Shown here: in pieces, positions 38,453-64,000 of the stretch
Position numbering within the stretch: position 1 is the stretch's first letter
Layout: each line of letters begins with the position of its first letter
NCBI RefSeq assembly: GCF_000591055.1
Contig: NC_020388.1
Location: forward strand, 1,426,001 to 1,490,000
Direction of reading: 5' to 3'
DNA length: 64,000 nt
Origin: Natronomonas moolapensis 8.8.11
Lineage (GTDB): Archaea > Halobacteriota > Halobacteria > Halobacteriales > Haloarculaceae
Notes under the pieces: model-generated
The model's input: only the letters and a program-made list of their open reading frames with translations
Databases searched by the model: none
Told to the model about the DNA's origin: nothing
Position numbers and translations under genes: made by a program

Positions 38453-39148
38453 GGCGGTGTTCAGATAAGAATGAAAAGTGAGACGGTACGTTTTTTGAGT
38501 GCTCTATGCCCAAAAACGCCCACCTCAACGGCTGTTTGGACGAGATCGAATTAGGTTTTGTGGAGCGAGAAGCGACACCGAGATTACTGATGAAGCTTGG
38601 TATTCAACTCCATTTAGCTGGCCTATCACTTTCGAATACCATTTCTATTCTTGAGATATTCGGTGTCAGTCGAGCTCAATCTACTATTCACAACTGGGTT
38701 CACAGGGCAGATCTACAGCCCGAGTCTGGTCGGAATCCGGATCACGTTGCGGTGGATGAGACCGTGATCCGACTCAATAATGAGCAGTACTGGCTGTACG
38801 CTGCTGTCGATCCTGAGACAAACAAATTACTACATACAACGCCTGAACCGACGACAAACAAGGTAATCGCTCACGCGTTCTTTGCCGAACTCCGCGAGAA
38901 ACACGACGTTGACGACGCGGTGTTTCTCGTAGATGGCTCGCACTCACTGAAAGACGTCTGTCGCCGCCACAGCCTCGATTTCAGATATGAACGCCACGGA
39001 AATCGGAATAGCGTCGAACGTGTCTTTCGAGAGGTAAAACGACGAACTATCATTTCTCAAACTGTTTTAGCAACGTCGAAGCCGACACCGACGACGGGTG
39101 GCTTCGACCCTTCGTCTTCGCATGGAATCAGCGTACCTGAACACTACC
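38453..39148 (+). mobile_element. IS6-family element, copy 1, 696 bp
   Basis: Ends GGCGGTGTTCAG (left) and CTGAACACTACC (right) are imperfect inverted repeats shared with the copy at 57212-57907. The flanking 8 bp (gctaaaat and gttgccac) differ, so this copy was involved in a rearrangement, perhaps by recombination between IS6 copies. Confidence 0.75.
38506..39140 (+). pseudogene. IS6-family transposase, copy 1, frameshifted
   Basis: The frame carries DDE residues (Asp in DHVAVDETVIRLN, Asp in VDDAVFLVDGSHSL, Glu in NSVERVFREVKRRT). After VKRRT it lacks one base relative to copy 2, so the expected NFSNCF...WLRSF ending is replaced by an unrelated tail in the original frame. Confidence 0.75.
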
Positions 39149-39179: not shown

Positions 39180-39333
39180 CGCTCTTCGGTAGGGGATTGT
39201 TAATACTGCTTCTCACAGGAGGGCCGGAACAGAGGCCCCCCGTTTGAGCGCTTGACCAGCTAATTCTTGTCCCAGCAGACTCAAACAAGAATCGTAAGAC
39301 AGCTCTACATCAACAATGTGCTACGTAAGAGCG
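39180..39333. mobile_element. MITE with IS1595-type ends, 154 bp
   Basis: The left end CGCTCTTCGGTAGGGGATTG and inverted right end CGCTCTTACGTAGCACATTG match the ends of the MITE at 14362 and of the IS1595-type element at 46752. There is no coding capacity. It lies directly upstream of the first receptor kinase and may have brought or altered its promoter. Confidence 0.5.
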
Positions 39334-39375
39334 TTGAACAAAACACATAATGTACCTCCAAAACCATCCAACAGT

Positions 39376-41815: not shown

Positions 41816-43993
41816 ATGAGCCAATTCAGTTCAAAAACTACGGGGGGTCTCGGTAGGCGGGCTTTGTTACGAAAGTCAGTGGGTGTGGGGGTTGCATCGA
41901 CGATCGGCGTCCGAAGTACTAGAATAGCCGCAGCTGCCGGGGGTGACGAATTGTGGCGGTTCGAAGCTGACTCCATAATCGTGTCTTCTCCAACCGTGGT
42001 CGATAATACCGTTTATTTTGGAACTAATGGAAGTGATGTACACGCAGTAGACGCAGAAACTGGTGAAGAGCAGTGGCGGTTTGAAGCTGACCAGTACATA
42101 AATGCAACACCAACGGTCGTCGACGAAGTCCTATATATATCCAGTAATGATCATCATATCTATGCTCTTGACAGAACCAGCGGAGATGAATTGTGGCGTT
42201 TCGATACGGGTCATGTGAGCAGGTCATCGCCAACTGTCGCAGACGGGACGGTATTTGTAGGCAACGGAGACTCCGGAGGAAAAGACACTACAGGCGCTGG
42301 TCTCTATGCAGTTGGTGCAATCTCAGGGGAGGAAAAGTGGAAATTTGAAACTAACGATCGGATATCGTCTTCACCGGTCGTCAAAGACGATATTGTGTTG
42401 TTTGGTAGCTATGATGGAAATTTGTATGCGTTGAACTCCGAGACCGGCGAACAGAGATGGGCCAGTGAAACCGGTGGGGGGCAGTCTTCGCCAACAGTAG
42501 CAGACGAGACAGTCTATATTGGTGGATGGCAGGACGGAAACGTTTATGCGTTTGACGTAGACAGTGGTGATCTACGTTGGGAGTTTGAAACCGATGATAT
42601 TGTCAGTTCGTCACCAACAGTAGCTGCAGGATCCGTCTTTGTTGGGAGCGCCGATAACAACGTGTATGCAATCGATGCGGACAGCGGGGAACCGGAGTGG
42701 GTTTTTCAGACAGGTTCTACAGTAGCGTCATCACCGACTGTCGTAGGGGAACGGGTGTTTATTGGCAGTGGTGACGGAAACGTATACGCTCTTGATAGCA
42801 CTGAGGGCACCGAGATATGGCGATTCGAGACTAACGATGAAGTCTCCTCGTCGCCAATTGTCGTTGACGGTGTTGTATACATTGGGAGTCGGGAAGGGCG
42901 TGACGAGGGGATAATATACGCACTTGAAGCCGGTATCGACGGTTCTAGTGAGGGGTCTCGAGCACATGATGGTTCATTAAACCATCACGAGACATGGCGG
43001 CACGCAGGCCAAGACATCAATATCGACGCATTCTCCGGAGGCGATGACGGGGGTACGAATCCTGTCGCAGCGATATTCCGGCGTGCTAGTGAAGACACCG
43101 GTCTTGTTGGCACCATACTTGCCGCCGGAATTGCCAGCGGTGGGTATCTAACGTATAAATGGCGTCAATCTTCAAGAGAGAATGAGGAAAAGGCGACAGA
43201 GACTACGGGTAGCGTGGCAAATCCGTCGCATGCTGGGCCGGGGAATGGCGACGTCGGGATATCGTCCTACAGTGAGTTTGATTTCAGAGAAACTGTTAGG
43301 GAGGGATCTCAATATCAAATTGAGGCAGCCGTAACTCGGGGGGACCACCAGTCTGCCTGGGTCATCACATATAATTCACAGGATAGCGAGACTATTCAGG
43401 CGACAAATATCGAAGAATTCAATGACCGAATCGAACCCTGGACAAAATTCGAGGACCACCCACACCTGATCTCAGTCTACGGATATGGCACGGAGCCGTT
43501 ACCATGGGTCGCGGTCGAACCGGCAGACTATCCGACGCTTATTGAGACAGCTGCAGACTATTCGCTTTCACAGCGAATTGCATTTGTTGAGGAAGCGTGC
43601 GAAGCGGTTCACCATGTCTCTCGGTACGGATTCAATTACGACGTGCTTGCCCCCGAAAGTCTCCTAGTTACCCCCGAAGACACGCTGAAACTTCGAGGGG
43701 TCCTTGATTACATAACCCCGACAGAAAAAACGCCATACGAACCACCAGCGAAGAAACAAGGACAGACAGCTGAGAGTGCAGCTGTATATCGGCTCGGTGC
43801 AATAGGATACGAGATTCTTTCGGGGCAACCACTAGATGATGCTGGCTCGTCGGTAACCCCACCCTCAGAACGAAACCCAAAGTTACCGAAAAAACTCAAT
43901 AGAACTCTGTTAATGGCGCTAGCAGCAGATCCTGATGATCGTCATGAAACGGTACTCCATCTACGGGACGAACTAGATCAAGGTCTACGATGA
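41816..43993 (+). CDS. Tat-exported PQQ-propeller receptor with pseudokinase
   Basis: The 725 residues start with a Tat signal (GLGRRALLRKSVGVGVAST), then an eight-repeat propeller (ELWRFEAD...SSPTVVD...VYALD units about every 40 residues, 43-370), one membrane helix (429-448) and a kinase-fold domain (485-725). The kinase is degenerate: no Gly-rich loop, AWVITY where the Lys strand belongs, FNYDVLAPESLLV in place of HRDxKPxN (Lys and Asn lost) and LRGVLD in place of DFG. The C-terminal DDRHETVLHLRDEL is as in the active kinases. It probably modulates or anchors the neighbouring kinase rather than catalysing. Confidence 0.75.
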   Translation: MSQFSSKTTGGLGRRALLRKSVGVGVASTIGVRSTRIAAAAGGDELWRFEADSIIVSSPTVVDNTVYFGTNGSDVHAVDAETGEEQWRFEADQYINATPTVVDEVLYISSNDHHIYALDRTSGDELWRFDTGHVSRSSPTVADGTVFVGNGDSGGKDTTGAGLYAVGAISGEEKWKFETNDRISSSPVVKDDIVLFGSYDGNLYALNSETGEQRWASETGGGQSSPTVADETVYIGGWQDGNVYAFDVDSGDLRWEFETDDIVSSSPTVAAGSVFVGSADNNVYAIDADSGEPEWVFQTGSTVASSPTVVGERVFIGSGDGNVYALDSTEGTEIWRFETNDEVSSSPIVVDGVVYIGSREGRDEGIIYALEAGIDGSSEGSRAHDGSLNHHETWRHAGQDINIDAFSGGDDGGTNPVAAIFRRASEDTGLVGTILAAGIASGGYLTYKWRQSSRENEEKATETTGSVANPSHAGPGNGDVGISSYSEFDFRETVREGSQYQIEAAVTRGDHQSAWVITYNSQDSETIQATNIEEFNDRIEPWTKFEDHPHLISVYGYGTEPLPWVAVEPADYPTLIETAADYSLSQRIAFVEEACEAVHHVSRYGFNYDVLAPESLLVTPEDTLKLRGVLDYITPTEKTPYEPPAKKQGQTAESAAVYRLGAIGYEILSGQPLDDAGSSVTPPSERNPKLPKKLNRTLLMALAADPDDRHETVLHLRDELDQGLR

Positions 43994-44558: not shown

Positions 44559-44758
44559 AATTTTAAGTAAAAAGAAGATAGATACCATGCTAATGCGCGG
44601 GTATTGGGAATTGGGGTTGCTCAACGGCAGTAATGGATGGACTCACCATGGTTTTGAAAAAACGTTAGCAGTCGAAACATCTAATGAAGGGCTCTGTTTC
44701 GAAAAAATCGGACTCAATCCCAGATGGACAGCTGGATCAACAAAGTGATCCTATAGAC

Positions 44759-46699
44759 ATGTTATCGAGACGGCATTTACTACGCACTTCAGCCTCCTTG
44801 GGTACTGCTGGGATAGTTGGCGTTGCTACGGTGGCTGGACAACAAGAAGAAACATTTCAAGCGAACAACGATCTGGTCAGTTTAGGGCTTTCTCCAGACT
44901 ACATTAGTTCGGGTAGATATGCTTCATCGCTCGAATTTGATGGAGAAAACAGATTGAAAAGACCGTTTCGTTTCTCCGGATACACACCTGAGGAAGAGCG
45001 ACTAAACTATGTCGAAACTGTCGAATCTACACGCCTCTCTGGCGAGGGCTGGCAGGGATTCTCACTAATACGAACCTTCGAATTCAATACGGAGACAGAA
45101 TATAGGATTGAACAGCGCTCTCTTGTCCCGCCGGAGGAACCACTCGTTTTAACCGAAATGATACTTGCAAATACCGGAGAAGAGTCACTTACTATTCGGC
45201 GACCGGATAATCATATACACAACGGTTGGGTTCTTGCTGTTGTCCCGCCGCTTGCAAATCCTGAGGGAACGTATCGGTATTCTATTGATGGGGATTCCCC
45301 TCAGAGTTTTGCGGAGAGCGACCTCTGGTATACCCATGAATTGACCGATTCAACGCATTTCATTACCCAGTTTGCGGACCGATACGGAATCACGCTGAGT
45401 TATTTAGGTGGTCATACGGATCCGGTTCAAGCCATCACCGATAACCGGGGGATCAACGGCTCCGATCTAGAGTACGAGAATAAATCGGAGTTACCTCGAA
45501 GCGAGGAAAACCCACCTGCTCGTGTGACCGAGGGCTTCAGCGTCGATACCATTGATTTCGGTGTTGATGGCCTTTCGTTGGATGCCGGTAAAACCGCCTC
45601 ATACACTCACTCGCTCAGTATTCATGAGGGGGGTGACGAAGCGATCAGCCGTGCAGAGGAACTTACCGAGAGAGCTAGCACTCTATCCGATGAGTCCCCC
45701 TCAATCTCTGCTCTTACTGGAGAGGGCAATGATTCGATAACTGGCGCGGTGTTCCGGCGCTTCTCAAACCCGGGGAATTCACCCCTACTATTGGGGCTTG
45801 GAGGAATGATGGGCGCTGGTGCAACGTATCTTGGATATCGAAGGCTACGCCGTGATACGAGTAGAGACACTTCTACAGAGGACAATCAAGAATCGATAGG
45901 ACGACAACCGACTACCGAATCTCAAGAAGTATCTCTTTCAGTCGACGACTACGAATCGCTTGAAATCATTGAGACTGTTCGAGAGTCCGATACAGTTCGA
46001 GTACAGAAAGCATCACCCGGTGAAACCCAGGTATGGGTCCTTACGTTGACTGTAGAACCGAATGAAACACTCAGCGCCTCCGATATTAACCACTTCGTCG
46101 ATACGGTCCAACCGTGGTCACAAATAAAGCCGCATCCGAATCTCTTGTCGGTAGTCGAGACTGGAGAGGAGCCTGTCCCATGGGCTGCAATTGAGCCGGC
46201 GGATCATCCCTCTCTCTCCGGCTATATCGGACAGATTTCGGTCGATACGTGTAGTAAGTGGCTTAAGCAGATCTGTGAAGCGTTACATCATACTTCCAGA
46301 TACGGGCTGGTTTATCAGAATCTTACAACAGATAATCTCTTATTACCCGATGATTCTAACGTAAAACTTCGTGGGCTGCTTGACGAATTCGAAGCGCGTA
46401 ACCCTTGGTATATGGCTCCTGAAGAATTCGATAATACAATAACCGAACAAAGTCTCGTGTATCGAACTGGGCTTGTCGGATACGAGCTATTAACTGGATC
46501 TCTTCCATATGGCTCGTATCCGGATGGAGATCCCCAGACTGTAGTTCAATCCAAGGAGTGTATAGCGTTATCCGAGCGATTGGAGTCTTACCAGACGGCA
46601 CTCGGCGACATATTGTCAGAAGCTCTTTCGCCATATCCCGAAGATCGCCACGAGACCGTCCTTCATCTCCGGGACGAGGTTGAGGAACTCCGCAAATAG
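44759..46699 (+). CDS. Tat-exported receptor with novel ectodomain and pseudokinase
   Basis: From the ATG at 44759 the protein (646 residues) has a Tat signal (MLSRRHLLRTSASLGTAGIV), a 300-residue extracellular domain that is beta-rich and not a PQQ propeller (WQGFSLIRTFEFNTETEYRI), a membrane helix (about 341-360) and a kinase-fold domain. The latter is degenerate: YQNLTTDNLLL in place of HRDxKPxN and LRGLLDEFE in place of DFG, with no Lys strand. A start at 44684 would add 25 residues before the Tat motif. The layout copies that of the 41.8-kb gene with a different sensor, which suggests sensor swapping on a common cytoplasmic module. Confidence 0.7.
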   Translation: MLSRRHLLRTSASLGTAGIVGVATVAGQQEETFQANNDLVSLGLSPDYISSGRYASSLEFDGENRLKRPFRFSGYTPEEERLNYVETVESTRLSGEGWQGFSLIRTFEFNTETEYRIEQRSLVPPEEPLVLTEMILANTGEESLTIRRPDNHIHNGWVLAVVPPLANPEGTYRYSIDGDSPQSFAESDLWYTHELTDSTHFITQFADRYGITLSYLGGHTDPVQAITDNRGINGSDLEYENKSELPRSEENPPARVTEGFSVDTIDFGVDGLSLDAGKTASYTHSLSIHEGGDEAISRAEELTERASTLSDESPSISALTGEGNDSITGAVFRRFSNPGNSPLLLGLGGMMGAGATYLGYRRLRRDTSRDTSTEDNQESIGRQPTTESQEVSLSVDDYESLEIIETVRESDTVRVQKASPGETQVWVLTLTVEPNETLSASDINHFVDTVQPWSQIKPHPNLLSVVETGEEPVPWAAIEPADHPSLSGYIGQISVDTCSKWLKQICEALHHTSRYGLVYQNLTTDNLLLPDDSNVKLRGLLDEFEARNPWYMAPEEFDNTITEQSLVYRTGLVGYELLTGSLPYGSYPDGDPQTVVQSKECIALSERLESYQTALGDILSEALSPYPEDRHETVLHLRDEVEELRK

Positions 46700-48008: not shown

Positions 48009-51000
48009 TCAAATAGACTCAAACACCTCTTTTAGATCGTCTCGGAGATATAACACGTGTTCGTACCGATCAGCTTTGCGACGCTTGAGGGCTTTCAGAA
48101 TAATTTCGTCGAGTGCTGCTGGGATATCAGCATGCTCGCTCGGCGGAGCCAAGTATTCATTTTGAATCTTGTTTACTATCTCGAATGTCTGGCCCGTGAA
48201 CGGTGGTCGCTCCGTAAAGAGCTCGTACGATACAGCCCCAAGCTGGTAGATATCGGTAGCGGTATCGGTGTCACCGTAGGCTTCAGAATCAAACTGCTCG
48301 GGAGCAGCGTACTGCGGTGAGATCCCTTCAACACTTTGAGAGTGGTCAAGCAAGTGTTTTGAGAGTCCCCAATCAGCAACTTTTGGTGGATCCCATGCAT
48401 CCTCAACCTCTCGAAACAGAATATTCTCGGGCTTCAAATCAAGATGAGCGACGCCGCGATCGTGGGCGTGACGTACCGCACGGGTTATCGTCAGCGCTGT
48501 CCAGCATTTTTGCCGTATATCCATCCCGGCAATACGCTCGCCAAAATGCCCGCCATCCATGTACTCCATTCCGATCCATGGCAATGGCTCGGACCCGTAG
48601 TCAACAACGGAAACGATGTGGTCGTGGTCATCAAGTTGTTGCCATAATTTAGCTTCGTCTACTATTTGGTTAACAGCTTCAGCGTGGAGTGTTCCCTTCA
48701 TTCTGGGTGTTTTGATCGCCAGTCTTAGTCGACCATCGTCAGTTTCGATGGTAGCTCGGTGGACATCGGCGTTTCCACCCTGGCCGAGTGGCTCTTCGTA
48801 ATCGAAGTCCTCGTAAGTGAATGAGCGTCGAGGTGGACTTGGAATCGTCTCTGGAACGGGGCGGGTGCCACTGCTGACCACGACTTTTGCCTCACGTTTG
48901 ATATTTCCATCCCGCTCGTATCCGACTTCCCTAACCCGTACCACCCGACCCTCTGTGAGTTCACTTTCGGTTTTTGACCAGACTTTGTGCCGATACGGAT
49001 CCGTAGTACTGCCGGGATCCGGATCGATAACTGCGTACCCAGCTGCATACAGCGTCTCGTCAAGCCGTTTGATTCCGGCGTCGAGGTTCGCGGTGGTCAG
49101 CTCACTCTGCTGGAGCTTGTTTCTGAGGTCCTCTAAAGCTGTATAGAACCGTAGTATCTCATCGGGTACTGCAGCCGTTTCTTGATCAAAATTATCCGGG
49201 AAATAGTCAAGCAGCTCCTCGATCTGATTCGTAATCGGCTGGATATGATTGTCCGCTGGGGCTGTCACGTGGGCGTTATCTTGATAATAGACCTGAGCTC
49301 GGGTGAGGGTGTTCCGGATATCGATCGTTCCGTCGACTAACGTCTCTAAGAGCTTCTCTTCGTCCTCAAGCTCGAATGGTTCATTTTCTTTGTCCCACTC
49401 AGACTCGATAACCTTCTCAAGCATCGAACGGAGCTGTTCCTCATTTTTGAATTTCCCCGGCCCACGAGCAAGCTCGGTTAGAAGTTGCTCGTCGGTTTCA
49501 AAATCGACTGCCTGATCAACAAGTAAATCTATGAGCTTCGTCGTACTTTCCAGATCAGCTGCTTTTTCAATGATCTTCGTTTCGTTCTCAAACTCGACAG
49601 GGCCCTCGAGAAGTAGTGTTTCAAAACGATCCTCAATCGAGGCTAGAGCGGGAAGCGAGCGCTGGCTAAAGATTTCTGATCCAGTTACCGGCGTATCCGA
49701 AAGCTCATCAATCGTAATCGATTCCTCATCATCAGTTTCGATATTTCGTGCTTCGACAGCGATGATGCCGTTTTCATCTATATCAAGGGTGATCTCGATC
49801 TGTGGAACGCCAGCTGCCGCAGGTGGGATATTTGAGAGGGTGAATTCTCCAAGTAATTCGTTTTCTGCGGCGATCTCGCGTTCGCCTTGGAATATCCGAA
49901 TCCGAAGCCGAGTTTGATCGTTATGACTGGTCGTAAAAACTTTTGACGCCGCTGTCGGAATCGTTCTGTTCTTCTCGGTAAGTCGCTCAAAGAGCCCGCC
50001 TTCGACCTCAATCCCGAGGCTCAGCGGCGTAACGTCTAATAGGATGATATCGTCAACCTTGCCTGAAAGTACCCCGCCTTGCACTGCAGCCCCTTTCGCA
50101 ACGGCCTCGTCGGGATTGACGCTTTTATTCGGCTTCTGGTTGGTAAATTCCTGGATTTTGTTCTGAACCTGCGGCATCCGCGTTGAACCGCCCACGAGAA
50201 CAACCTCGTCGATGTCATTTACCGGGTAGCCGGCATCGTCAAGCGCCTGCTCAGTCACCTGGATGGTCTGTTCAAGTAGGTCGTTTGTGATCGACTCAAA
50301 TTCCGCTCGAGAGAGCTTTTGCTCAAGATCAATCGGCCCGTCTCCGGTTGTGGCAATAAACGGGAGGTTGATTGCCGTTTCCATTCGTGAAGATAGCTCA
50401 AGCTTTGCTTCCTCAGCAGCCTCGGCTAGCCGCCGGAGCGCCTGCCGGTCGTCGCGGAGGTCGACCCCGTGTTCGTCTTCGAAGGAGTCGGCCAGATATT
50501 CGATGATCGCCTGGTTCCAATCATCCCCACCGAGGGTATTATTTCCGTCAGTCGTGACAATTTCGAAGACACCACCACCGAGGTCGAGAACCGAGACACT
50601 GAACGAGCCGCCGCCGAGGTCGTACACGAGTACTTTCTGGTCTGATTCGTCGTCGTAGCCGTACGCCATCGCCGCCGCCGCTGGCTCATCAATGATGCGG
50701 TCGACCTCAAGGCCGGCTAGCTCGCCAGCGTCCTTCGTTGCTCGGCGCTGGCGGTCGTTGAAATAGGCTGGGACCGTGATAACCGCCTTTTCAACCTCAT
50801 GACCGAGAGACTCCTCGGCATTTCGTTTGATTTTCTTGAGTACCATCGCCGAGATCTGCTCGGGCGTGTACTCGTCGCCGCCCGCCTCGACGGTGTAGCC
50901 GTCCCCCCCCACGTGACGCTTGATCGATTCGACCGTATCCGCAGGATTTTGTATCGCTTGATCCTCTGCAGGCTTGCCGACCAGCGGCTCGCCCTCATCT

Positions 51001-51137
51001 GTGAAGGCGACGACCGATGGCATCGTTCGTTTGGCTCCACCGAGAGCGGTAATCTTGGGAGAGCCATTTTCCATTACCGCAACTGCTGAATTGGTTGTCC
51101 CGAGATCAATTCCAATTATATCACGCCCGGGGACCAT
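48009..51137 (-). CDS. DnaK-GrpE-like-Ser/Thr kinase fusion, 1042 residues
   Basis: Residues about 5-385 are an Hsp70 ATPase domain ([53 protein letters not shown]). Residues about 390-485 are a substrate-binding beta domain. A helical linker with four [12 protein letters not shown]-like repeats (about 512-600) replaces the usual lid. Residues about 630-757 resemble GrpE, ending DPYRHKVW...[20 protein letters not shown]. Residues 775-1042 are an active-looking Ser/Thr kinase with Gly loop [14 protein letters not shown], Lys809, [11 protein letters not shown] (Asp900) and DWG (Asp922). In the Hsp70 domain, the phosphate-2 motif reads [10 protein letters not shown]; the Asp that is normally at the second S position (Asp201 of E. 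coli DnaK) is missing, which may lower ATPase activity. The chain thus joins chaperone, exchange factor and kinase. It is transcribed toward the receptor genes and away from the ISH3-like element. Confidence 0.85.
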
Positions 51138-53300: not shown

Positions 53301-56300
53301 ATGGGTGTCGGAGATGATCAAGAAGGAGATGAAACGATCGATCTCTCAGACATCTTTCTGTACTCTCTCCTCGGTGCTGAAGCCATTCATGTGCTCTTTT
53401 TGATTGGGAGTACCGTTCTCGAAGAAGGATTTCTTTCCGAGGTCCTACTCTGGGGGGGGCTTCTCACTATTCTGCTAGTCCCAGTGTTGGGGTATCTCGA
53501 TCTTCGACGTCTCCGTACAGCGGGCTACTGGGAACCGCATGGCCGGGGCTCATTCTGGGTTCTTGGTATGCTTTTCCCGTTCGTAAGCCCCTCCGTCGTG
53601 ATCGCGTACGTTCTCCGTCGACGCGAACTCGTGACACACGACGGTTTCTGGGGACGATGGGCATACGTTAGCGGTACGGCGGTCGCTGCTTTGACCCTCT
53701 CTATTGTCGGATTACTCATCTTTGGGGATCCATCCACCGAGGGCAACACAATAGGACAAAACGTTGCAGTGTCGATCTTTATCGCATTCACGCTTCTACC
53801 GAGCCTGACGACATATTTCGATCTCCAGTATCTACGCCGAGCGTGGAGCCACGACTTCTCATTTATAAACTGGCTCTGGGTTCCTATGATGCTCGTATGG
53901 TTTTTCCAGATCATATTCTTCACCGCTTACGGATACTGGCGAAGGAAATTCTTGGACGGTAAGCGATGGATCAAAACCACCGAGGACACCCTCAACAAGA
54001 CCCGTTCACAGCTTGAAGAAGGTGTTAGTGCGCTCGAAAGCGACCAGTACGACAGCGCGCTGTCGTGTTTTAATCGTGCAGAGCAGTCACTAGACAACGC
54101 GAACGCGATCGTTAGGAGATTTATCGATGAGTCCTCTGATGAGTACCCGAAACACGCCCAGAAGGTGATTTCAGAAATCTCCGAGATGCAGCGGCATATA
54201 GAGGGTAATCGAGCGCATTCTGAGGCCGCAATCGCACTCGAAGCCGGTCTAGATGCGCTCGATGACAACAAGATCGAGTCGGCTATCGATTCGTTCGAAA
54301 CGGCTATCGACCGAAGCGAGACAGCACTCGGCACGGTTGATGAGCAAGCCACCACAAACAAAATCCGTAAAACATCGCTGCGTGCACGCAACGAACTTGA
54401 GGCAACCCTCGAACAATATATCGACGAGAGAATACTCCCACTCGAAAACCGGATTGAGACCACTTACGAGGATGGTATTTCGGCGCTCAAAGCTGGCAAC
54501 TACGACGAGGCCGCTGACTGCTTTTCCGAAGTTGACGACTACCTCAGTGAACTTCAATCACGGGTCAAAGCCTACGGTCTCAATCGGGACCTACCAGTCG
54601 ACAGTGACGACGTCGCCGAGAAGATGACCACCGTCGAGCGACAGCGTATCGTTTCGGAGGAACTCGATCCGTTGGCCGACCAGATCGAATCGATGTATGA
54701 GGAAGGTGTGTCGGCACTAGAAGCTGGCAATTACGAGGCGGCATTAGACCGGTTCGAAGAGGCTAAGGATGCTATCGAACAGTTTCAGTCAGTCCAAGCG
54801 AACCACGGTTTTGACCGCGATCCACCGATAACTAGCGACGAGGTAGTCGATCAAATCGACACCGTTGAATGCGAACACGAGCGGGCAGCGATCGAAAGCT
54901 GCCTCAGTCGCGTTGGGGAAGCTCGTTCCGAAGGCAAATCGGCGATGGGCGCAAACGAGTACGACCGTGCCGTCACAACACTCGAACACGCTCGCGAAGA
55001 ATTTAAAGACGTATCGTCGCTCATCGCCAAATCATCTCTTAATGAATGGGATCTTGAGGAGCGTGAATCAACGCTGAATGAGCTATACGAGACTGCGGTC
55101 ACAGAGCGCGAAACACAACGATATCGTGACTCCAAAGAGCGTGGTGAAACACTGCTTGATGAGGCTATCGCCAGCGCTGAGGCGGGGAACTACGCCACTG
55201 CAATCAAAACCTGCAACGAGGCCCATGAGGCCTTCGAAGAGGCTCAAGCGGTCGCTGAAGAGTTATCGGTCGTCGGTGGGGACCAAATTGAGGATCGACT
55301 TGATGACATTTCCGACCTGCTTTCGGACTACCAAATCCGGGAACTGAGCGAGCGCGTCACTGATGCGCGCGTCTCCGTGGACGAGGGTGACCGCGAGCAA
55401 TACCTTACGGCTGCCAACGACTTAGATGAGCTTACCGCAGAACTAGACGGACAGGAAATCGACCGCGAGCGTGATCTTGCGGTTCTCCGCGAAGAAGCCG
55501 AGCTTGAGCGCCTCAAGGCGTTGTTGCTTGCCGAACGAGAGCGATCTATAGAAGCAATTGAAGCGTTCCGAGACGGTGACTACGCGACCGCCCGAGATTA
55601 TTTCGAGGACATACAGTCGGTTGTTGCCGGAATCCGAGCCGATGCGGAGGAGGCCGGGGTCACGGATTACGATGGAGTTATCGAGCAGCTTGAATCGACT
55701 TGTGAGCGAAACGCGACTGCGGCAAGACGAGGGGCATTGGGTATCGATGATGATCCGACAGTCACGCCAATCACGGTCTCGATGGGTAATAGAAATGATT
55801 CTAGCCAGTCACCAGATGACTCTGTTTCTGTACCGGTAGCCACTGACGACCCCGCTTCATCGATACGTCGATCCGGTGGAGCGTCCTTGGATGACGCACT
55901 ACTGGATGCACTACCTGTGGCGGAGGTTAGGGGCCATATTGGATCGGGCGGTAACGCGGATGTCTATGAGGTTCGCCTCGACTCCGGGGAGCGAGCGGCG
56001 CTGAAGGTGCCACGCTGGCAAGGGACGCTCTCGGCAACGTTGATCGATGAGTTCGAGAACGAAGCCGAAACGTGGAGCAAACTCGATGAGCATGACGGAA
56101 TCGTTTCAGTGATCAACTGGGACAATGAGCCACTCCCGTGGTTGTTGCTGGAGTATCTACCTGCATCTCTGGCAAATCGGATGGATTCACTATCGGTCGA
56201 TTCAGGTGTCAGTGTGCTCGTCGATGTGGCTGATGCGTTAGAGTTTGCCCACGGTCGTGGCGTCGTCCATCTTGATGTCAAACCTGAGAATGTCCTGCTA

Positions 56301-56690
56301 ACTGACACTGACACCCCAAAGGTTGGTGATTGGGGGCTCTCACAAGTTGTCCTCAACCACAAAAGAACCGGGATGGGACTGACACCCCCTTATTCCGCAC
56401 CAGAACAACTCTCGGACGAGTATGGCGATATCGACCGAAGGACTGACATCTACCAGCTGTCAGCACTTGCTTACCGCGTCCTGACGGGGCGGGTACCGTT
56501 TGACGCCGATCGTCCGATTGACCTGCAACAGCAGATACTTCGCGAAGATCCGACCCCGCCTTCAACAATTAACCCGGCACTAGACCCGGCTATTGATGAT
56601 GTACTAGTGAGGGGACTTGCTAAAAACCCGGACGATCGGTATGAGGCTGCTGTCCTCTTTCGAAACGCGATCTCATCGCTGGCCAGGTGA
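53301..56690 (+). CDS. Membrane protein with MIT/TPR-like repeats and Ser/Thr kinase
   Basis: The 1129 residues start with about six membrane helices (residues 20-225, e.g. IHVLFLIGSTVLEEGF). The middle part (about 235-830) has eight degenerate two-helix repeats of about 80-90 residues with a core like EEGVSALEAGNYEAALDRFE, YEDGISALKAGNYDEAADCF and SEGKSAMGANEYDRAVTTLE; they resemble TPR or MIT hairpins. The kinase (871-1129) is intact: Gly loop GHIGSGGNADVYEV, Lys902 (ALKVPR), Asp992 in HLDVKPENVLL and DWG with Asp1010. It shares GxGGNADV and the DDRYEAA...FRN C-terminus with the other kinases here. The repeats may dock the MIT-type or ESCRT-like partners encoded downstream. Confidence 0.8.
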   Translation: MGVGDDQEGDETIDLSDIFLYSLLGAEAIHVLFLIGSTVLEEGFLSEVLLWGGLLTILLVPVLGYLDLRRLRTAGYWEPHGRGSFWVLGMLFPFVSPSVVIAYVLRRRELVTHDGFWGRWAYVSGTAVAALTLSIVGLLIFGDPSTEGNTIGQNVAVSIFIAFTLLPSLTTYFDLQYLRRAWSHDFSFINWLWVPMMLVWFFQIIFFTAYGYWRRKFLDGKRWIKTTEDTLNKTRSQLEEGVSALESDQYDSALSCFNRAEQSLDNANAIVRRFIDESSDEYPKHAQKVISEISEMQRHIEGNRAHSEAAIALEAGLDALDDNKIESAIDSFETAIDRSETALGTVDEQATTNKIRKTSLRARNELEATLEQYIDERILPLENRIETTYEDGISALKAGNYDEAADCFSEVDDYLSELQSRVKAYGLNRDLPVDSDDVAEKMTTVERQRIVSEELDPLADQIESMYEEGVSALEAGNYEAALDRFEEAKDAIEQFQSVQANHGFDRDPPITSDEVVDQIDTVECEHERAAIESCLSRVGEARSEGKSAMGANEYDRAVTTLEHAREEFKDVSSLIAKSSLNEWDLEERESTLNELYETAVTERETQRYRDSKERGETLLDEAIASAEAGNYATAIKTCNEAHEAFEEAQAVAEELSVVGGDQIEDRLDDISDLLSDYQIRELSERVTDARVSVDEGDREQYLTAANDLDELTAELDGQEIDRERDLAVLREEAELERLKALLLAERERSIEAIEAFRDGDYATARDYFEDIQSVVAGIRADAEEAGVTDYDGVIEQLESTCERNATAARRGALGIDDDPTVTPITVSMGNRNDSSQSPDDSVSVPVATDDPASSIRRSGGASLDDALLDALPVAEVRGHIGSGGNADVYEVRLDSGERAALKVPRWQGTLSATLIDEFENEAETWSKLDEHDGIVSVINWDNEPLPWLLLEYLPASLANRMDSLSVDSGVSVLVDVADALEFAHGRGVVHLDVKPENVLLTDTDTPKVGDWGLSQVVLNHKRTGMGLTPPYSAPEQLSDEYGDIDRRTDIYQLSALAYRVLTGRVPFDADRPIDLQQQILREDPTPPSTINPALDPAIDDVLVRGLAKNPDDRYEAAVLFRNAISSLAR

Positions 56691-57183: not shown

Positions 57184-57211
57184 CTTTAATTAATACTTTC
57201 AGTAATATGAT

Positions 57212-57907
57212 GGCGGTGTTCAGGTAAGAATGAAGAGTGAGGCGGTACGTTTTTGAGTGCTCTATGCCCAAAAACGCCCGCTTCAACGGCTGTTTGAACG
57301 AGATCGAATTAGGTTTTGTGGAACGAGAAGCGACACCACGATTTCTGATGAAGCTCGGTATTCAGCTCCATCTTGCTGGATTATCGCTTTCGAATACCGT
57401 TTCGGTTATTGAGATATTTGGTGTCAAACGGAGTCGATCTACTGTTCATAATTGGGTCCACAAAGCTGATCTACAGCCCGAATCTGATCAGAATCCGGAT
57501 CACGTTGCGGTCGATGAAACAGTGATCCGACTCAATGATGAGCAGTATTGGCTGTACGCTGCTGTCGATCCCGAAACAAATGAATGACTGCACACACGGC
57601 TTGAGCCAACCACAAACAAGGGTATCGCTCACGCGTTCTTTGCTGAACTCCGCGAGAAACACACCGTTGATAACGCCGTGTTTCTCATTGATGGTTCACA
57701 CACACTGAAAGACGCCTGTCGCCGTCACAGCCTCGATTTCAGATATGAAAAACATGGAAATCGGAATAGTGTCGAACGTGTCTTTCGAGAGGTAAAACGA
57801 CGAACTACCAATTTCTCAAACTGTTTCAGCAACGCCAAAGCAGAAACTGCCGACGAGTGGCTCAGATCGTTCAGCTTCGCATGGGATCAGCTTATCTGAA
57901 CACTACC
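57212..57907 (+). mobile_element. IS6-family element, copy 2, 696 bp, with AATATGAT duplication
   Basis: Ends GGCGGTGTTCAG and CTGAACACTACC as in copy 1. AATATGAT at 57204-57211 and again at 57908-57915 is an exact 8-bp target duplication. So this copy inserted cleanly, into the small repeat element. Confidence 0.85.
57264..57899 (+). pseudogene. IS6-family transposase, copy 2, with a premature stop
   Basis: The protein is over 80% identical by eye to copy 1. A TGA at 57585-57587 follows VDPETNE, where copy 1 has NKLLHTT. Beyond it the frame is intact: HTVDNAVFLIDGSHTLKDAC, NSVERVFREVKRRTTNFSNC and WLRSFSFAWDQLI to the end. The Asp and Glu motifs of the DDE site are present on either side of the stop. 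Confidence 0.8.
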
Positions 57908-58113: not shown

Positions 58114-60108
58114 CTACCCGACGTCCATTGCAAGCCCTTGGCCGTCCACGTAGAACTGCTCGGCTCGGCCATCCGCTTCTAGCCGCTCAAAAGCACGTTT
58201 GATGATGTGACGGTCGAATCCATGCTCTGTGGAGATCTCTTCGAGACCAATGGTTTCGCGACCAATCTCGTTGAGATACCCAGATTGAATCGTTTCGATG
58301 CACGCCTCGACACGCTCAGCACTGACAGCCCGCTCAAACAACGAGATATTGTCAGCGACAACCGGATCAGACTCATCGTATATGAGACTGCCATTACGGA
58401 GGTCAACAAGACAGATGCTCACTTGTCGGCTGTAGTGGGTGCGTGCAAGCTCATCGGTCGCGATTTTTGATTTAACCTGGTCGGTCCAACCGGTCGGAGA
58501 TGCGATACCGAGTAGATATGTGACGTCTTTTCGATCAGCCTCGCGGACAGCATCGTTAACGAAACCCAATAGATCCTCGATATCGGCAGCGGTCGCATCA
58601 AACCCGTTCGCTGCGTGGGCTTCTAAATCTGAGTATACTGTCGCTTCGATAATCATCTCCGTCTGTTCGGAGAGGCCGAGATACTGACTTTCCGTTATTT
58701 CATACCGTGTCGTTGGATTCGTCGGATAACTCTCGACATGCTCGCCGTTTTTGTCATCCAATAACTGCACCATATGTGGTGCCCGGTTACGACGCTGGCT
58801 GCGCCGCTCCCAGTAGCCGTCTGGAATGTTGTAATTCCGGTCGGGAAGCCGCAAGGAGTCGATCTCGTGCATCTTCGTATCGAAGCGACCGACATAATCC
58901 ATCTCGAAGAGTTTCGCTGTCGAAGCACTGACAACTTCGGAGCCGTCAATCCCATCCACTTCTGCGGCAGGGTCGCTCCCTGAACTGATGGATCGCCCTA
59001 TGTCATCGACCTGTCTCTCGAGATCCTGTTGACGCTCCTCGAGACGATCACGAGCATGCTCTATTTGTTCACGCTCGCGCTGGAGCCGATCGATTTCCGC
59101 TCGGAGCTCCGAGCGTTGTTCAGTGATACGCTTGAGCTCGCTCTCCACGATCTCCGTAGCGTCTTCACGTCTGCTGTCGCTGCTCTGTTGTGCCTTTTGC
59201 CGAGCCTGTTCAAGTTGTTCAATGTTTTCGCCGAGCTGTGTCTCAAGTGTCTGAGTCCGCGCAATAGCAGTTTGTAACTCGACAAGGACCTCGTCATCGA
59301 GGCCACCAATGTCCTCGAGTTCAGCGCGGACCTCTTCAATATCAACAGTTTCGCTGGCAAGGTCACGCTCGACGCAGTGAAGTTGCGATTCGAGCTGTTT
59401 TCGCTGCTGCTGGAATCCCGTTTGCAACGATGTTTCGAGGTCGTTCAGCTCTGCTTGGAGCATCTCCTTGATTTGCTCACGTTCGCTTGAGGCGTCAGCA
59501 ACGGCTTCGATTGCCTCTTCGATGCTCTCAACCATATGCTCCATTCCATGCGTTTCGACATAGACGAAGAAGCCCTGCCGGATGCGTTCGCGGCGATCGT
59601 TGTATCGGTCGACGAGCCGCTCGATTACGTCCTGTTGGACCTCGGGGTTATCGATGAGGTCATCCATGTTGGCAATCTGCGTGGAGGTGTACTCTTGAAC
59701 GAGTTCGTACACTTCTCCTTCCATCCGGCGGATACGCCCCTCAATCTGCTCTTGATCGAGCGCATCAAACTGCTTGTAGCGATCAAACTCAACGACAGCT
59801 TGCAGTTCGGCCTCAATGAAGTCGTCCTCCATCGCTTTTGGCAGTTCTCCTTCGGCATAGAAACTCGCTGCAAGTAACAACCGTGCAAGTCGAATCTCCC
59901 CTCGCAGTCTATTCTCCTCGCTACTAGTGAGGAAGTCGCTGCACTCTTTACCGAACTCCCAGTTGAGTTCTTCTTCGTTCGATTTGATCTCGTTATATCG
60001 TTCGATTCGCGACCGATCCGGCATCCGCTTGAGCGCTGCGAGGTCCTCGTTTAGTATTCGTTCGCTCGTGTACGTGAGTTCGTTGAGCCAGTCTTGACAG
60101 TCGGTCAT
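58114..60108 (-). CDS. Long coiled-coil protein with winged-helix-like C-terminus
   Basis: This 664-residue acidic protein has an N-terminal helical domain (about 1-200), a coiled coil (about 210-385, Glu/Gln/Arg heptads such as LKRITEQRSELRAEIDRLQR) and a globular C-terminal part (about 410-600, LLDDKNGEHVESYPTNPTTR; GIASPTGWTDQVKSKI). The end, about 615-664, reads GLEEISTEHGFDRHIIKRAF ERLEADGRAEQFYVDG, like a winged helix. The gene overlaps the preceding one by ATGA. No enzymatic motif is seen. It lies back to back with the ESCRT-like operon and shares its operator type, so it may be a scaffold or effector. Confidence 0.6.
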   Translation of the reverse strand: MTDCQDWLNELTYTSERILNEDLAALKRMPDRSRIERYNEIKSNEEELNWEFGKECSDFLTSSEENRLRGEIRLARLLLAASFYAEGELPKAMEDDFIEAELQAVVEFDRYKQFDALDQEQIEGRIRRMEGEVYELVQEYTSTQIANMDDLIDNPEVQQDVIERLVDRYNDRRERIRQGFFVYVETHGMEHMVESIEEAIEAVADASSEREQIKEMLQAELNDLETSLQTGFQQQRKQLESQLHCVERDLASETVDIEEVRAELEDIGGLDDEVLVELQTAIARTQTLETQLGENIEQLEQARQKAQQSSDSRREDATEIVESELKRITEQRSELRAEIDRLQREREQIEHARDRLEERQQDLERQVDDIGRSISSGSDPAAEVDGIDGSEVVSASTAKLFEMDYVGRFDTKMHEIDSLRLPDRNYNIPDGYWERRSQRRNRAPHMVQLLDDKNGEHVESYPTNPTTRYEITESQYLGLSEQTEMIIEATVYSDLEAHAANGFDATAADIEDLLGFVNDAVREADRKDVTYLLGIASPTGWTDQVKSKIATDELARTHYSRQVSICLVDLRNGSLIYDESDPVVADNISLFERAVSAERVEACIETIQSGYLNEIGRETIGLEEISTEHGFDRHIIKRAFERLEADGRAEQFYVDGQGLAMDVG

Positions 60109-60644
60109 TGTTGATCAGGTGCTTGACTTGCTGCGTATTCGGTCAATTCGGCCTCGAAAAACTCTGCGAGAAACGATGGGGCCGGCGGATATCCGTTGAT
60201 ATTGATTTGGGCGACCACCTGTCCCTCTGTCTCGTTCAGTCTATAGCCTACTTCCGCACGTCCCTTCTTAGTGTATACTTCATATTCGTTTCGCGCAGCT
60301 GATTGTAGGACCGCCTTCTTCTTAGACAGAATATACTCAACGAACGTTTCTACTGCATCTATTGACGCAGCGATCCGCTGCTCTACCGTGACGCTCTCGG
60401 GTTCAACGTCCGTGTCAACCGGTTCAAGCCGGCAGATATCAACCTGCTGTTCAGGGACCTTGGCGACTAATTGCTCATACAGCTCGTCACGATCAACTCC
60501 TTCTGCGATGCGGACAAGCCCGCTGGGGCGGTTGATCTCTCCCTCGTCCCAATTATTAAACAGGTACTCCGCACGCTTTCGTTCTGCATCTTCCTCATAA
60601 TCGACAATATAGAGGTATCGCCCTTCGTTGTTATCTTCGGACAT
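60105..60644 (-). CDS. Protein of unknown function, 179 residues
   Basis: The start at 60644 (MSEDNNEGRYLYIVDYEEDA) has GGGAGG about 7 nt upstream as a ribosome binding site; a longer frame to 60749 would lie over the operator. It is acidic, with RKRAEYLFNNWDEGEINRPS, a helical centre and the strand VGYRLNETEGQVVAQININ. It overlaps the long coiled-coil gene by four bases, so the two are coupled and probably form one complex. Confidence 0.55.
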   Translation of the reverse strand: MSEDNNEGRYLYIVDYEEDAERKRAEYLFNNWDEGEINRPSGLVRIAEGVDRDELYEQLVAKVPEQQVDICRLEPVDTDVEPESVTVEQRIAASIDAVETFVEYILSKKKAVLQSAARNEYEVYTKKGRAEVGYRLNETEGQVVAQININGYPPAPSFLAEFFEAELTEYAASQAPDQQ

Positions 60645-60940: not shown

Positions 60941-61219
60941 ATGAACGTCACACTCTGGATCCCGGCGGTGCTCGTGATTAACCTCGTCTTAGGGGGGCTG
61001 TTGATGATCGGCGTTTTCAGCTTCATGGAGCGCCGCGTCTCACTCGGTGCCCTCGGTGGAATTGTAGTCGGGACGGGGGTTATCTACACGCAGGCAACCC
61101 TAGGTGAGGAGATGCTCCAGGTCACCGTTGGTGAAATGAAGTTGCTGGTTATCGCGGCCTCTCTGGGTGCAGTCATCGGAGTGGTCGGAACCGTCCTCGC
61201 TGTCGAACCAGACCTCTGA
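60941..61219 (+). CDS. Small three-helix membrane protein
   Basis: This 92-residue protein is nearly all hydrophobic: helices WIPAVLVINLVLGGLLMIG, LGALGGIVVGTGVIYTQAT and LLVIAASLGAVIGVVGTVL. A short positively charged turn (FMERRVSLG) orients it. It is the first gene of the operon with the ESCRT-like genes, 47 bp before the next start, and may be its membrane anchor or target. Not assigned to a family. Confidence 0.55.
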   Translation: MNVTLWIPAVLVINLVLGGLLMIGVFSFMERRVSLGALGGIVVGTGVIYTQATLGEEMLQVTVGEMKLLVIAASLGAVIGVVGTVLAVEPDL

Positions 61220-61266
61220 GTGGCATAGAATATAAATAACCACACTGAGCGATACAACATACCACA

Positions 61267-61932
61267 ATGGAACTACGAGATTGGGTTCAGGAACGATTTG
61301 GCACCGCAGATACAGAAACGCTCCTTGACGAGAGCGTCTACGGACAAAACGAACTACGGTCTGACAAAAAGAAGCTTGAACAAGGTCTGAAACAGCTTGA
61401 AAGCGATATGGACACCCACTCGAAAAAGTACCAGAAGCTACTGGAAAAGGGTGCCGAGGCCGACGAAATGCGACGCCGACAGTACGCACAGAAGGCCAAA
61501 TTCGAGAAGAAAAAATACGAGATTAAAAAGAAGAAACACAAGGCAAACAGCATCAAACTCGGGACGATCATCTCTATCGAAGGGATGCGCGAAGTCATGA
61601 ATATGCACGAGAGCCAAGAGCTTAGCCTTGATGAGGCGATGAGCCAAGATATCAATGCACAAGAAGTTCAAAGCGAGATCATGGACCAAATGGCGCAGTT
61701 TGGTCTCGAACTAGAGGATATGCAGCAGGTTCAAGATGCTCTCGATGTAGAGATCCTTGATGAGGATCTTGAACAGGGAGCTTCCGAAGAGCTCGAAGCT
61801 ATGGAGAAGATGGCAGCCGGCGAAATCTCCAGCGAACAAGTTGATGTCGAGGAAGACATGGAAGTGGAAGCTGACGACGTTAGCGTTGATGTCGATATCG
61901 AGGAAGACATGAACGAGACGGACGTGTTCTAA
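61267..61932 (+). CDS. ESCRT-III/Snf7-like coiled-coil protein
   Basis: The 222-residue protein has a short amphipathic start (MELRDWVQERFG), a long basic helical pair (about 28-105, KKKLEQGLKQLESDMDTHSK; EKKKYEIKKKKHKANSIKLG), further helices (about 105-160) and a very acidic tail (DMEVEADDVSVDVDIEEDM). This basic-core, acidic-tail layout is that of ESCRT-III/CdvB proteins, which polymerise on membranes. The family call is by layout and by the Vps4-like ATPase encoded 6 bp downstream; no clear MIM motif is seen. A plain coiled-coil adaptor remains possible. Confidence 0.5.
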   Translation: MELRDWVQERFGTADTETLLDESVYGQNELRSDKKKLEQGLKQLESDMDTHSKKYQKLLEKGAEADEMRRRQYAQKAKFEKKKYEIKKKKHKANSIKLGTIISIEGMREVMNMHESQELSLDEAMSQDINAQEVQSEIMDQMAQFGLELEDMQQVQDALDVEILDEDLEQGASEELEAMEKMAAGEISSEQVDVEEDMEVEADDVSVDVDIEEDMNETDVF

Positions 61933-61938
61933 TCGATT

Positions 61939-63090
61939 ATGTCGCTCGAAAAGAGCGCACAGAAGAGTCATTTTGAATCCGAGTACAAGAACTACCGAGA
62001 ACAGGCCGAACGAGCTCGCAAAGAAGGAAACGCAAAAAAAGCAGCTCGATACTATCGACAGTGCGTTGAGGTTCTGCAAGATATTGCCGAGTTAGAGTCT
62101 AGTGGACGGCTTACGCAGGAACGGCTTGAGCTGGCAAAGAACCTCAACACTGCGGCTGATCGGCTTGAGAACGATCAACCGCTTGTCAGTGACGAGACTG
62201 ATAGCGAATCGTCAACGGGCAGTGGGTCCGGCAGTGGCGGTAATGAGGGACGTCCTGCAGGGGGCGATGGGGATGGCGACGAAGCTGACCCATCTGCGTA
62301 TCTCGAAGATCCGCCCGATCTCAGTTTCGGCGACGTTGGTGGGATGACTGATCTCAAGGAAACGCTGAAGGATCAGGTCATAGATCCGCTTGAACGCCCA
62401 GAGCTATATGAAGAGTACAACCTCGGCGTTGTCAACGGCGTTCTGTTATATGGGCCACCAGGAACCGGGAAGACGTATATTACAGAAGCACTCGCTGGCG
62501 AGCTTGATTACAACTATATCGAAGCCCAGGCGTCGGACATCACCAGTTCCCTCGTCGGTGAAGCTGCCGAGAACATGAGCGAGATGTTCGAAGTCGCCCG
62601 GGACAACCAGCCCTGTCTCCTGTTCATGGATGAGATCGAGGCGATTGCTGCCGAACGTAGCGGGGGCTCACAAAAGACGATGAGTGAGAGCCAGATGATC
62701 ACTCAGTTTCTCACGGAAATGTCTGAGACCAAAGGTGAAGATGTCGTCGTTGTTAGCGCAACGAATCTCCCTGACGAGATTGATGCCGCGGCATGGCGTC
62801 GATTCGACGAGCGAATCGAGGTACCACCGCCGGATGCGACTGCTCGTGGCGCGATTCTCCGAGTTCACCTTCGCGAACGTCCCGTCTTGACCGACGAAAT
62901 AGAGTGGGACCAAATCAAGGAACGTACTGATGGCTACTCGGCAAGCGACCTCGAGATTATCGCTTCGACAGCTGCCCGGAAAGCACTCAAAGAAGCTCGT
63001 GCCTCGGATGAAGTTGTCCCGATAACGCAAAAACATCTCGAGATGGCCATCGAGTCGACGAAGTCTAGTCTTGAAGCATGGGATAAATGA
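61939..63090 (+). CDS. MIT-domain AAA ATPase, Vps4/CdvC-like
   Basis: The 383-residue protein has an N-terminal three-helix MIT-like domain (about 1-75, EYKNYREQAERARKEGNAKK; AARYYRQCVEVLQDIAELE), a Gly/Ser/Asp-rich linker (88-120) and an AAA domain. The latter has Walker A GPPGTGKT (172-179), Walker B LLFMDEIEAI (Asp231-Glu232), sensor 1 VVSATNLPDEID and arginine-finger RRFDERI. This domain order and length are those of Vps4/CdvC, which pulls ESCRT-III subunits from polymers. A C-terminal helix (EMAIESTKSSLEAW) completes it. FtsH/Cdc48-like enzymes lack the MIT domain. Translationally coupled to the next gene by ATGA. Confidence 0.75.
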   Translation: MSLEKSAQKSHFESEYKNYREQAERARKEGNAKKAARYYRQCVEVLQDIAELESSGRLTQERLELAKNLNTAADRLENDQPLVSDETDSESSTGSGSGSGGNEGRPAGGDGDGDEADPSAYLEDPPDLSFGDVGGMTDLKETLKDQVIDPLERPELYEEYNLGVVNGVLLYGPPGTGKTYITEALAGELDYNYIEAQASDITSSLVGEAAENMSEMFEVARDNQPCLLFMDEIEAIAAERSGGSQKTMSESQMITQFLTEMSETKGEDVVVVSATNLPDEIDAAAWRRFDERIEVPPPDATARGAILRVHLRERPVLTDEIEWDQIKERTDGYSASDLEIIASTAARKALKEARASDEVVPITQKHLEMAIESTKSSLEAWDK

Positions 63091-63827
63091 AGAGCTATTT
63101 GACACCCAAACGCGACGCAACCCACGCCGAGACGGTTCGACGAATCCCGATTAACGGGCCCGTTGGGCTCTATCGGCTTGATGACGGAAGCCACGCCGTT
63201 ATTGCTGAGACCGACGATGAAACGATCGAACTTGGCGTCCGAGATGCTGCCGTCTCTCGAAAAAAGGGCGGGTCAGCACCAGTTGAACTCCTCCCCGACG
63301 CTCGTGGAATCCGTGTCCGCAATCAAAATAGCAAGAATCCAGTGAGCGTGAAAACAACCCTCCGTGAGCAACAACTCGCCGAAGGGGAGAATACAGTTAT
63401 CAAGGACGATTGTATCATCGAACTCGGTATCACGACCGAGATTCGCGCAACGGTCGAACGAGACCGTAACACCCTCTCGAAAGAGGAACTTAAGGAAAAG
63501 CTTGGAATGAAACAGGAAGGAGATGTCATGGAGGGTGTATCCCCAGCGGCTCATGCCCGCGCAATAGCGGTCAACTTTAGAAAAGCCACCAACGAATCGG
63601 TTCCTGAATGCCGAAAGTACGCAACCGAATTGAAGAACTTCGTCGCAGAACATGAAGTTGAGGACCCCGATTACGAGCCAGTCCTCGACGAGCTACAACA
63701 GGTAACCAAGCGGCTCGAAAACAAGTCATCTGGGGCACTCCGAGGGAGTGGTATCGACGAAGAGTGGAACGAAGAAATTGACCTGCTAGCAGATCGCGCC
63801 GAGAAGCTGTACGGGCGAGCTGATTGA
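63087..63827 (+). CDS. FHA-like phosphopeptide-binding protein with helical tail
   Basis: The start overlaps the AAA stop. Residues about 35-125 form a beta-rich domain with features of FHA: DDETIELGVRDAAVSRKKGG (the R-x-x-x-S-R/K turn that binds phosphothreonine in known FHA domains), then GIRVRNQNSKNPVSVKTTL and the loop GENTVIKDDCIIELG. The tail (about 150-246) is helical (RKATNESVPECRKYATELKN). FHA domains read phosphothreonine, so it should link the island's kinases to the ESCRT-like machinery. The assignment is by pattern and not proven. Confidence 0.55.
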   Translation: MKSYLTPKRDATHAETVRRIPINGPVGLYRLDDGSHAVIAETDDETIELGVRDAAVSRKKGGSAPVELLPDARGIRVRNQNSKNPVSVKTTLREQQLAEGENTVIKDDCIIELGITTEIRATVERDRNTLSKEELKEKLGMKQEGDVMEGVSPAAHARAIAVNFRKATNESVPECRKYATELKNFVAEHEVEDPDYEPVLDELQQVTKRLENKSSGALRGSGIDEEWNEEIDLLADRAEKLYGRAD

Positions 63828-63857
63828 TCGGTAAACAAGTGTGGAACGCTCTGAATT

Positions 63858-64000
63858 ATGAATACACACGAATTAACGGACGTTGGAATAAAAAGGGATG
63901 CGAACGAAGACGCCGTTCTGACAGCCTCAATCGGGGAACAGTACCTACTGGTTGTTGCGGACGGAATGGGAGGTCACGCTGCCGGTGACGTTGCAAGCGA
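63858..64000 (+). CDS. PP2C-family protein phosphatase, 5' part
   Basis: The first 47 codons read [20 protein letters not shown], then [18 protein letters not shown]. The D-x-N-E-D of metal-binding motif and [11 protein letters not shown] are the two N-terminal signatures of PPM/PP2C Ser/Thr phosphatases (Mn/Mg-dependent). The gene runs off the window at 64000. Thirty bp after the FHA-like gene, it is probably in the same operon and supplies the opposing activity to the kinases. Confidence 0.85.

Follow-up and report, generated by a model that had tools for sequence, protein, structure and literature searches.

A Halo_FHA-type ESCRT locus embedded in a Ser/Thr kinase cluster in Natronomonas moolapensis

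Introduction

What role do relatives of the eukaryotic membrane-remodelling machinery ESCRT (endosomal sorting complexes required for transport) play in archaea that divide with FtsZ? The question is raised by a compact operon in the complete 2.91-Mb genome of Natronomonas moolapensis 8.8.11, within a stretch of 64,000 nt (NC_020388.1 1,426,001-1,490,000), here called the window, whose positions we use throughout. The operon encodes a Vps4-type ATPase, a candidate ESCRT-III protein, an FHA-like protein and a PP2C phosphatase. We are highly confident that the locus is a Halo_FHA-type archaeal ESCRT system. Our best overall explanation, which we hold to be probable though well short of firm, is that this system sits amid clustered Hanks-type Ser/Thr kinases and performs phosphorylation-controlled membrane remodelling.

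In the literature found, archaeal ESCRT systems other than CdvABC of the TACK archaea are described mainly from sequence. Makarova et al. 2024 (mBio, PMC10936438) described the Halo_FHA clade in haloarchaea. It comprises Vps4, ESCRT-III and arCOG13166, a family in which an FHA domain is joined to a CdvA-like domain; the ESCRT-III gene is assigned upstream of Vps4. Some of its loci carry arCOG09748, arCOG08177, Ser/Thr kinase (STK) and Ser/Thr phosphatase (STP) genes, and sorting of phosphorylated cargo was inferred for these systems. The original prediction for this DNA, which had been made from sequence and knew of no described system of the kind, was mistaken on that point, as the clade had already been reported with its kinases and phosphatases.

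Results

Organization of the operon and its ATPase

Five plus-strand genes form a tight operon at 60941-64583. They encode a small membrane protein of 92 aa (60941..61219), an ESCRT-III-like protein of 221 aa (61267..61932), a Vps4/CdvC-type AAA ATPase of 383 aa with an MIT-like N-terminus (61939..63090), a 246-aa protein with an FHA-like domain (about residues 1-125) and a helical C-terminal domain (63087..63827), and a PP2C phosphatase of 241 aa (63858..64583; PF13672, PP2C_2, E=3e-16). The phosphatase gene lies at 63858..64000 in the window and extends 583 bases past its end (L001:9858-10583). Six bases separate the coiled-coil (ESCRT-III-like) gene from the ATPase gene, and the ATPase and FHA-like genes overlap by four bases. 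All five genes and these junctions are as originally predicted, except that the coiled-coil protein had been given as 222 residues, a count that includes the stop; two minus-strand genes (58114-60644) and the kinase cluster had been overlooked.

The ATPase matches AAA (PF00004, E=2e-36) and keeps all its catalytic motifs intact, with an invariant GPPGTGKT (Walker A), the Walker B DE and the arginine-finger RF..R. In our own tree of 28 Vps4 sequences, the window protein groups with FHA-associated haloarchaeal Vps4s and is split from methanogen Main-clade Vps4s (100/98).

Conservation and co-distribution

The arrangement is conserved in about 16 other haloarchaeal loci, well beyond chance. In the common order, a winged-helix (wH) gene and a TBP-type gene diverge from the genes for the small membrane protein, the ESCRT-III-like protein, Vps4, the FHA-CdvA-like protein and PP2C, with kinases adjoining. 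Most of the relatives examined have the two divergent genes beside the operon. In the window they are the conserved divergent partner, a TBP/DUF3568-type protein of about 179 aa (60105..60644, minus strand; ATG start at 60644, with a longer open reading frame (ORF) from GTG 60749), and a coiled-coil protein of 664 aa (58114..60108, minus strand) that probably carries a C-terminal winged helix, judging from its sequence appearance and the description in PMC10936438. The wH/coiled-coil gene is kept in nearly all loci, those of the methanogen Main clade included. Following the published description, we treat the 664-aa protein as arCOG09748-like and ESCRT-II-like, and the TBP-type protein, whose position and size also fit, as arCOG08177-like. 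The small membrane protein has two hydrophobic segments. Its homologues occur in 9 loci, measure 92-109 aa in most relatives, and share the near-identical motifs EMKLLVxAA and GEE/GEQ; the available part of PMC10936438 does not mention this protein.

Membership varies among loci. Several lack PP2C, and the Halonotius operons (L002-L005) showed neither a TBP-type nor a small membrane gene beside them. FHA and CdvA-like domains are encoded by two separate nearby genes in three loci (L043, L044 and L046), where the separate FHA gene bears zinc-ribbon sequences. Two genomes, G234 and G282, have dispersed kinases and an FHA-PP2C pair located well away from the Vps4 locus, which counts against our best explanation. 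Other lineages of this phylum, which we label methanogen on the basis of PMC10936438 and the phylum, carry an FHA-less set of TBP, wH, ESCRT-III-like, Vps4 and kinase genes that corresponds to the published Main clade.

We surveyed 394 genomes of the class, using cut-offs for strong and close matches that were set after the tables had been seen. A strong ESCRT-III-like profile match was found in 21 genomes. With p-values that treat genomes as independent and ignore phylogeny, this gene was shared by 19 of the 21 genomes with FHA (hypergeometric p 4e-28), by 13 of the 16 with full-length PP2C (p 1.5e-16) and by 17 of the 21 with close kinases (E<1e-50; p 1e-22). The pattern that the original prediction had named as contrary to its reading, MIT-AAA genes whose neighbours consistently lack the coiled-coil and FHA genes, was not observed: FHA accompanies the ESCRT-III-like gene in 19/21 genomes, and FHA-less loci fall mostly on other Vps4 branches. 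Its link to FHA and PP2C phosphosignalling is borne out by gene conservation, the Vps4 tree, the FHA matches described below, and the co-distribution of PP2C and kinases.

The ESCRT-III-like protein

The 221-aa protein is probably ESCRT-III, mainly from its context and the published assignment (PMC10936438). Its position before Vps4 is constant across loci, and it is homologous to methanogen proteins adjoining Vps4/wH/TBP genes. An amphipathic-looking N-terminus (MELRDWVQERFG) and a basic/neutral helical half are followed by a strongly acidic C-terminal half, and the same asymmetry runs through the family, whose members are basic to near-neutral in the first half and strongly acidic in the second. 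Profile comparison with CHMP4B/Shrub/Snf7 gave a weak match, scoring 27.7 where shuffles averaged 16.1 and 4/300 of them scored as high; the stretch aligned with CHMP4B/Snf7 lies in the alpha2 register, with KKxYE, GT, SIE and RE shared. The CHMP4B sequence in this comparison agreed with PDB chains 3um3 and 4abm over the stretches covered.

Alternatively, the AAA ATPase could act on this protein as a coiled-coil substrate unrelated to ESCRT-III, in a system that is not a membrane-remodelling ESCRT. Several results weigh against our best explanation. The MIT half of the originally predicted MIT-AAA ATPase is sub-threshold (PF04212, residues 21-77, E=0.024, 15.2 bits against a cut-off of 30) although the AAA half stands, and a Pfam MIT search of the genome gave no match. 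A Pfam search of the genome for Snf7 was likewise negative, with a model that is also sub-threshold in the Sulfolobus acidocaldarius control and hence of low sensitivity for archaea. Pfam scans of 16 ESCRT-III-like homologues matched no family, and PDB profile searches with ESCRT-III-like alignments returned nothing meaningful and no link to Snf7 or CdvB. The AlphaFold model of the 221-aa protein, built from five sequences, is poor (predicted TM-score 0.26) and shows a single long helix (27-115), in which the alpha1-alpha2 hairpin, the structural check named in the original prediction, is not visible; Foldseek with this model gave zero matches. The negative Snf7 results, the poor hairpin-less model and the shuffles that equalled the CHMP4B score favour the unrelated substrate. 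The charge asymmetry, the motifs shared in the alpha2 register and the constant place before Vps4, where PMC10936438 assigns the ESCRT-III gene, point instead to ESCRT-III, and we regard an unrelated coiled coil as quite improbable.

In two further loci (L065 and L066, in G213 and G271), the ESCRT-III-like domain is fused to an extra C-terminal domain in a 402-aa ORF, and no FHA or Vps4 gene was found beside it.

The FHA-like protein

Eight of the nine matches in a PDB profile search with the FHA-like family were FHA proteins (GarA/OdhI), at weak E-values of 0.07-0.35, and the top Foldseek matches of a low-confidence model were the FHA domains of ArnA and APLF (prob 1.00, E 5e-3). Singly weak but in agreement, these matches assign the predicted domain to FHA by both sequence and fold. 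The C-terminal domain is helical in the model, and its CdvA-like similarity is taken from PMC10936438.

The FHA identity given in the original prediction therefore stands, whereas the phosphothreonine reading that it implied is weakened. The canonical GR arginine, which binds phosphothreonine from the beta3-beta4 loop, is absent at the aligned position in 20/20 homologues. The family does not conserve the histidine of SxxH either, and both observations count against our best explanation. Five residues, Leu49, Asp53, Val56, Ser57 and Gly114, show no variation; 19/20 homologues have Arg30, 19/20 have Arg58 and 18-19/20 have Asn84, and the VSR serine and the beta6-beta7 loop asparagine are retained. 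Because the model is weak around the missing arginine, we keep the near-invariant YR at 29-30 as an alternative arginine. Direct phosphothreonine reading by this domain nevertheless appears rather unlikely.

The FHA-like domain may instead be a structural or oligomerisation domain, with the kinases and PP2C acting directly on ESCRT, wH or membrane proteins. Loss of the GR arginine while the VSR Ser and the beta6-beta7 Asn are kept would fit this, as would the AlphaFold strand order, which places the lost residue in the beta3-beta4 loop; but the model has a pLDDT (predicted local distance difference test) <50 in that region, Arg30 or Arg58 could substitute, and the co-distribution with PP2C and kinases also counts against it. 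We rate a structural role as a serious possibility, a little below even. It is a variant of our best explanation and is compatible with phospho-controlled remodelling.

The kinase cluster

Nine Hanks kinases were detected in the genome, and eight of them lie inside a 31-kb stretch around the operon, six with catalytic motifs kept and two degenerate. Two plus-strand genes encode PQQ beta-propeller proteins, one of 774 aa (39316..41640) with a Ser/Thr kinase whose catalytic motifs are intact and one of 725 aa (41816..43993) with a pseudokinase that has lost the catalytic Lys, HxD and DWG motifs. They are followed by a degenerate pseudokinase-domain protein of 671 aa (44684..46699, plus strand), by a minus-strand Hsp70 (DnaK)-GrpE-Ser/Thr kinase triple fusion of 1042 aa (48009..51137), and by a plus-strand membrane protein of 1129 aa (53301..56690) with about six transmembrane (TM) segments, a TPR/coiled region and a C-terminal Ser/Thr kinase. 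The domains of the triple fusion are HSP70 (7-509, E=1e-191), GrpE (613-755, E=2e-7) and Pkinase (780-1025, E=3e-31); a literature search narrow in wording found no paper on such fusions. Over 16 genomes, with coordinates entered by hand, 69/111 kinases lie <=50 kb from an ESCRT-III-like gene. Their partner domains include PQQ propellers, plastocyanin, TPR, HEAT and Hsp70-GrpE, to which two other genomes add UvrD helicase.

Further kinases of note include a possible redox or copper receptor kinase at L001:17066-19147, in which the kinase precedes two plastocyanin domains, and, next to the ESCRT loci of two other haloarchaea, proteins that join a Ser/Thr kinase to a UvrD/REP helicase (L035:10883-15640 and L039:3637-7605). 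A long match related to the Hsp70-GrpE-kinase fusion lies near the G352 ESCRT locus (C5:431417-433024; 1228-aa frame). On G040 C2 (224 kb) and G058 C1, the ESCRT locus and 12-14 kinases share one contig stretch; the former contig is small enough that it may be a secondary replicon.

Mobility of the island

Two 97%-identical insertion sequence (IS) copies in opposite orientation, at window positions 38453-39096 and, past the window end, at L001 16412-17056, bracket about 31 kb holding the operon and most of the kinases. Horizontal spread of the island is likely because these inverted copies bracket it. A third copy (86%) lies at 57210-57907, the GC content of the kinase-ESCRT island is lower than that of the window start, and neither FHA nor ESCRT-III-like matches were found in 10 other sampled genomes of the genus.

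This patchy distribution, the lower GC and the many IS elements, including the inverted pair, would also suit a phosphorylation-controlled defence or stress island, with kinases as sensors of infection or damage and the ESCRT-like machine either mending the membrane or sacrificing it. The fusions of kinases with UvrD helicase or with Hsp70-GrpE would fit as well, and the kinases match the PADLOC PD-T4-6 and mads kinase models while PP2C matches a candidate-system model. PADLOC matched no complete known defence system, however; its kinase, AAA and PP2C matches are generic, of a sort that may arise with any AAA protein or kinase, and the wH/TBP/ESCRT-III-like/Vps4/kinase set also occurs in methanogens, which fits an older cellular system. 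We consider a defence or stress island unlikely.

Discussion

The function we favour, at slightly better than even, is phospho-controlled membrane remodelling. FtsZ-family genes are present in the genome and the locus is missing from most haloarchaea, so primary cell division is an unlikely role, in agreement with the original suggestion of a job other than division. Separately, three divergent tubulin/FtsZ/CetZ-family genes occur within 8 kb elsewhere in this genome, at G000:C1:1902422-1910630, possibly a separate locus of another type.

Kinases with differing sensor domains (PQQ or plastocyanin, perhaps outward-facing, TM/TPR and Hsp70-GrpE) would phosphorylate shared targets, and the FHA-CdvA-like protein would tie assembly of the membrane-bound ESCRT-III-like polymer to the phosphorylated state or to its own phosphorylated partners. 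The small membrane protein may anchor this polymer, and the wH and TBP-type proteins may be cargo or assembly adaptors. Vps4 would remodel the polymer and PP2C would reset the signal; the resulting membrane remodelling would serve to sort proteins, release vesicles or control membrane quality. More tentatively, haloarchaea may have a general response to cell-envelope or proteostasis stress in the form of modular kinase-ESCRT islands, where a single ESCRT machine takes input from numerous sensor kinases (PQQ, plastocyanin, TM/TPR, HEAT, Hsp70-GrpE and UvrD-helicase fusions, plus pseudokinases).

The published Halo_FHA systems and the locus analysed here have in common Vps4, FHA-CdvA-like, arCOG09748- and arCOG08177-like, STK and STP genes, and the place of the published ESCRT-III gene is taken here by the probable ESCRT-III gene. 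Compared with that description, our analysis adds the conserved small membrane protein, the presence of wH and TBP-type genes in most loci, FHA/CdvA-like genes that are split, up to 14 massed kinases and the missing FHA arginine. The locus type itself was described in 2024; what is new are the kinase islands, the Hsp70-GrpE and UvrD kinase fusions, the conserved small membrane protein and the split genes. The Main-clade euryarchaeal ESCRT of PMC10936438, found here in methanogen-lineage genomes, likewise has Vps4, ESCRT-III, arCOG09748, arCOG08177 and kinases, but no FHA gene was found beside its loci and its Vps4 occupies a separate branch.

More distantly, the CdvABC cell-division system of TACK archaea pairs an MIT-AAA ATPase with an ESCRT-III-type polymer protein, which our MIT-like ATPase and ESCRT-III-like protein resemble, and the FHA protein C-terminus shows CdvA-like similarity according to PMC10936438; our locus differs from it in having no Snf7/CdvB sequence match, in its kinase, PP2C and FHA genes, and in the FtsZ-family genes of its genome. 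With bacterial FHA-kinase-PP2C signalling of the GarA/OdhI type it shares the FHA fold, Hanks kinases and PP2C, the nearest PDB sequences being GarA and OdhI, whereas here these components are coupled to an ESCRT-like machine and the canonical phosphothreonine-binding arginine is absent.

The massing of kinases around the ESCRT locus is a new detail that points to phosphorylation-controlled membrane remodelling, and it predicts that the substrates are to be sought among the ESCRT, wH, TBP-type and FHA proteins. Because the operon is compact, comes with kinases and a phosphatase of its own and belongs to a genetically tractable group, it offers a testable handle on this function; it is also relevant to the origin of regulated membrane remodelling before eukaryotes.

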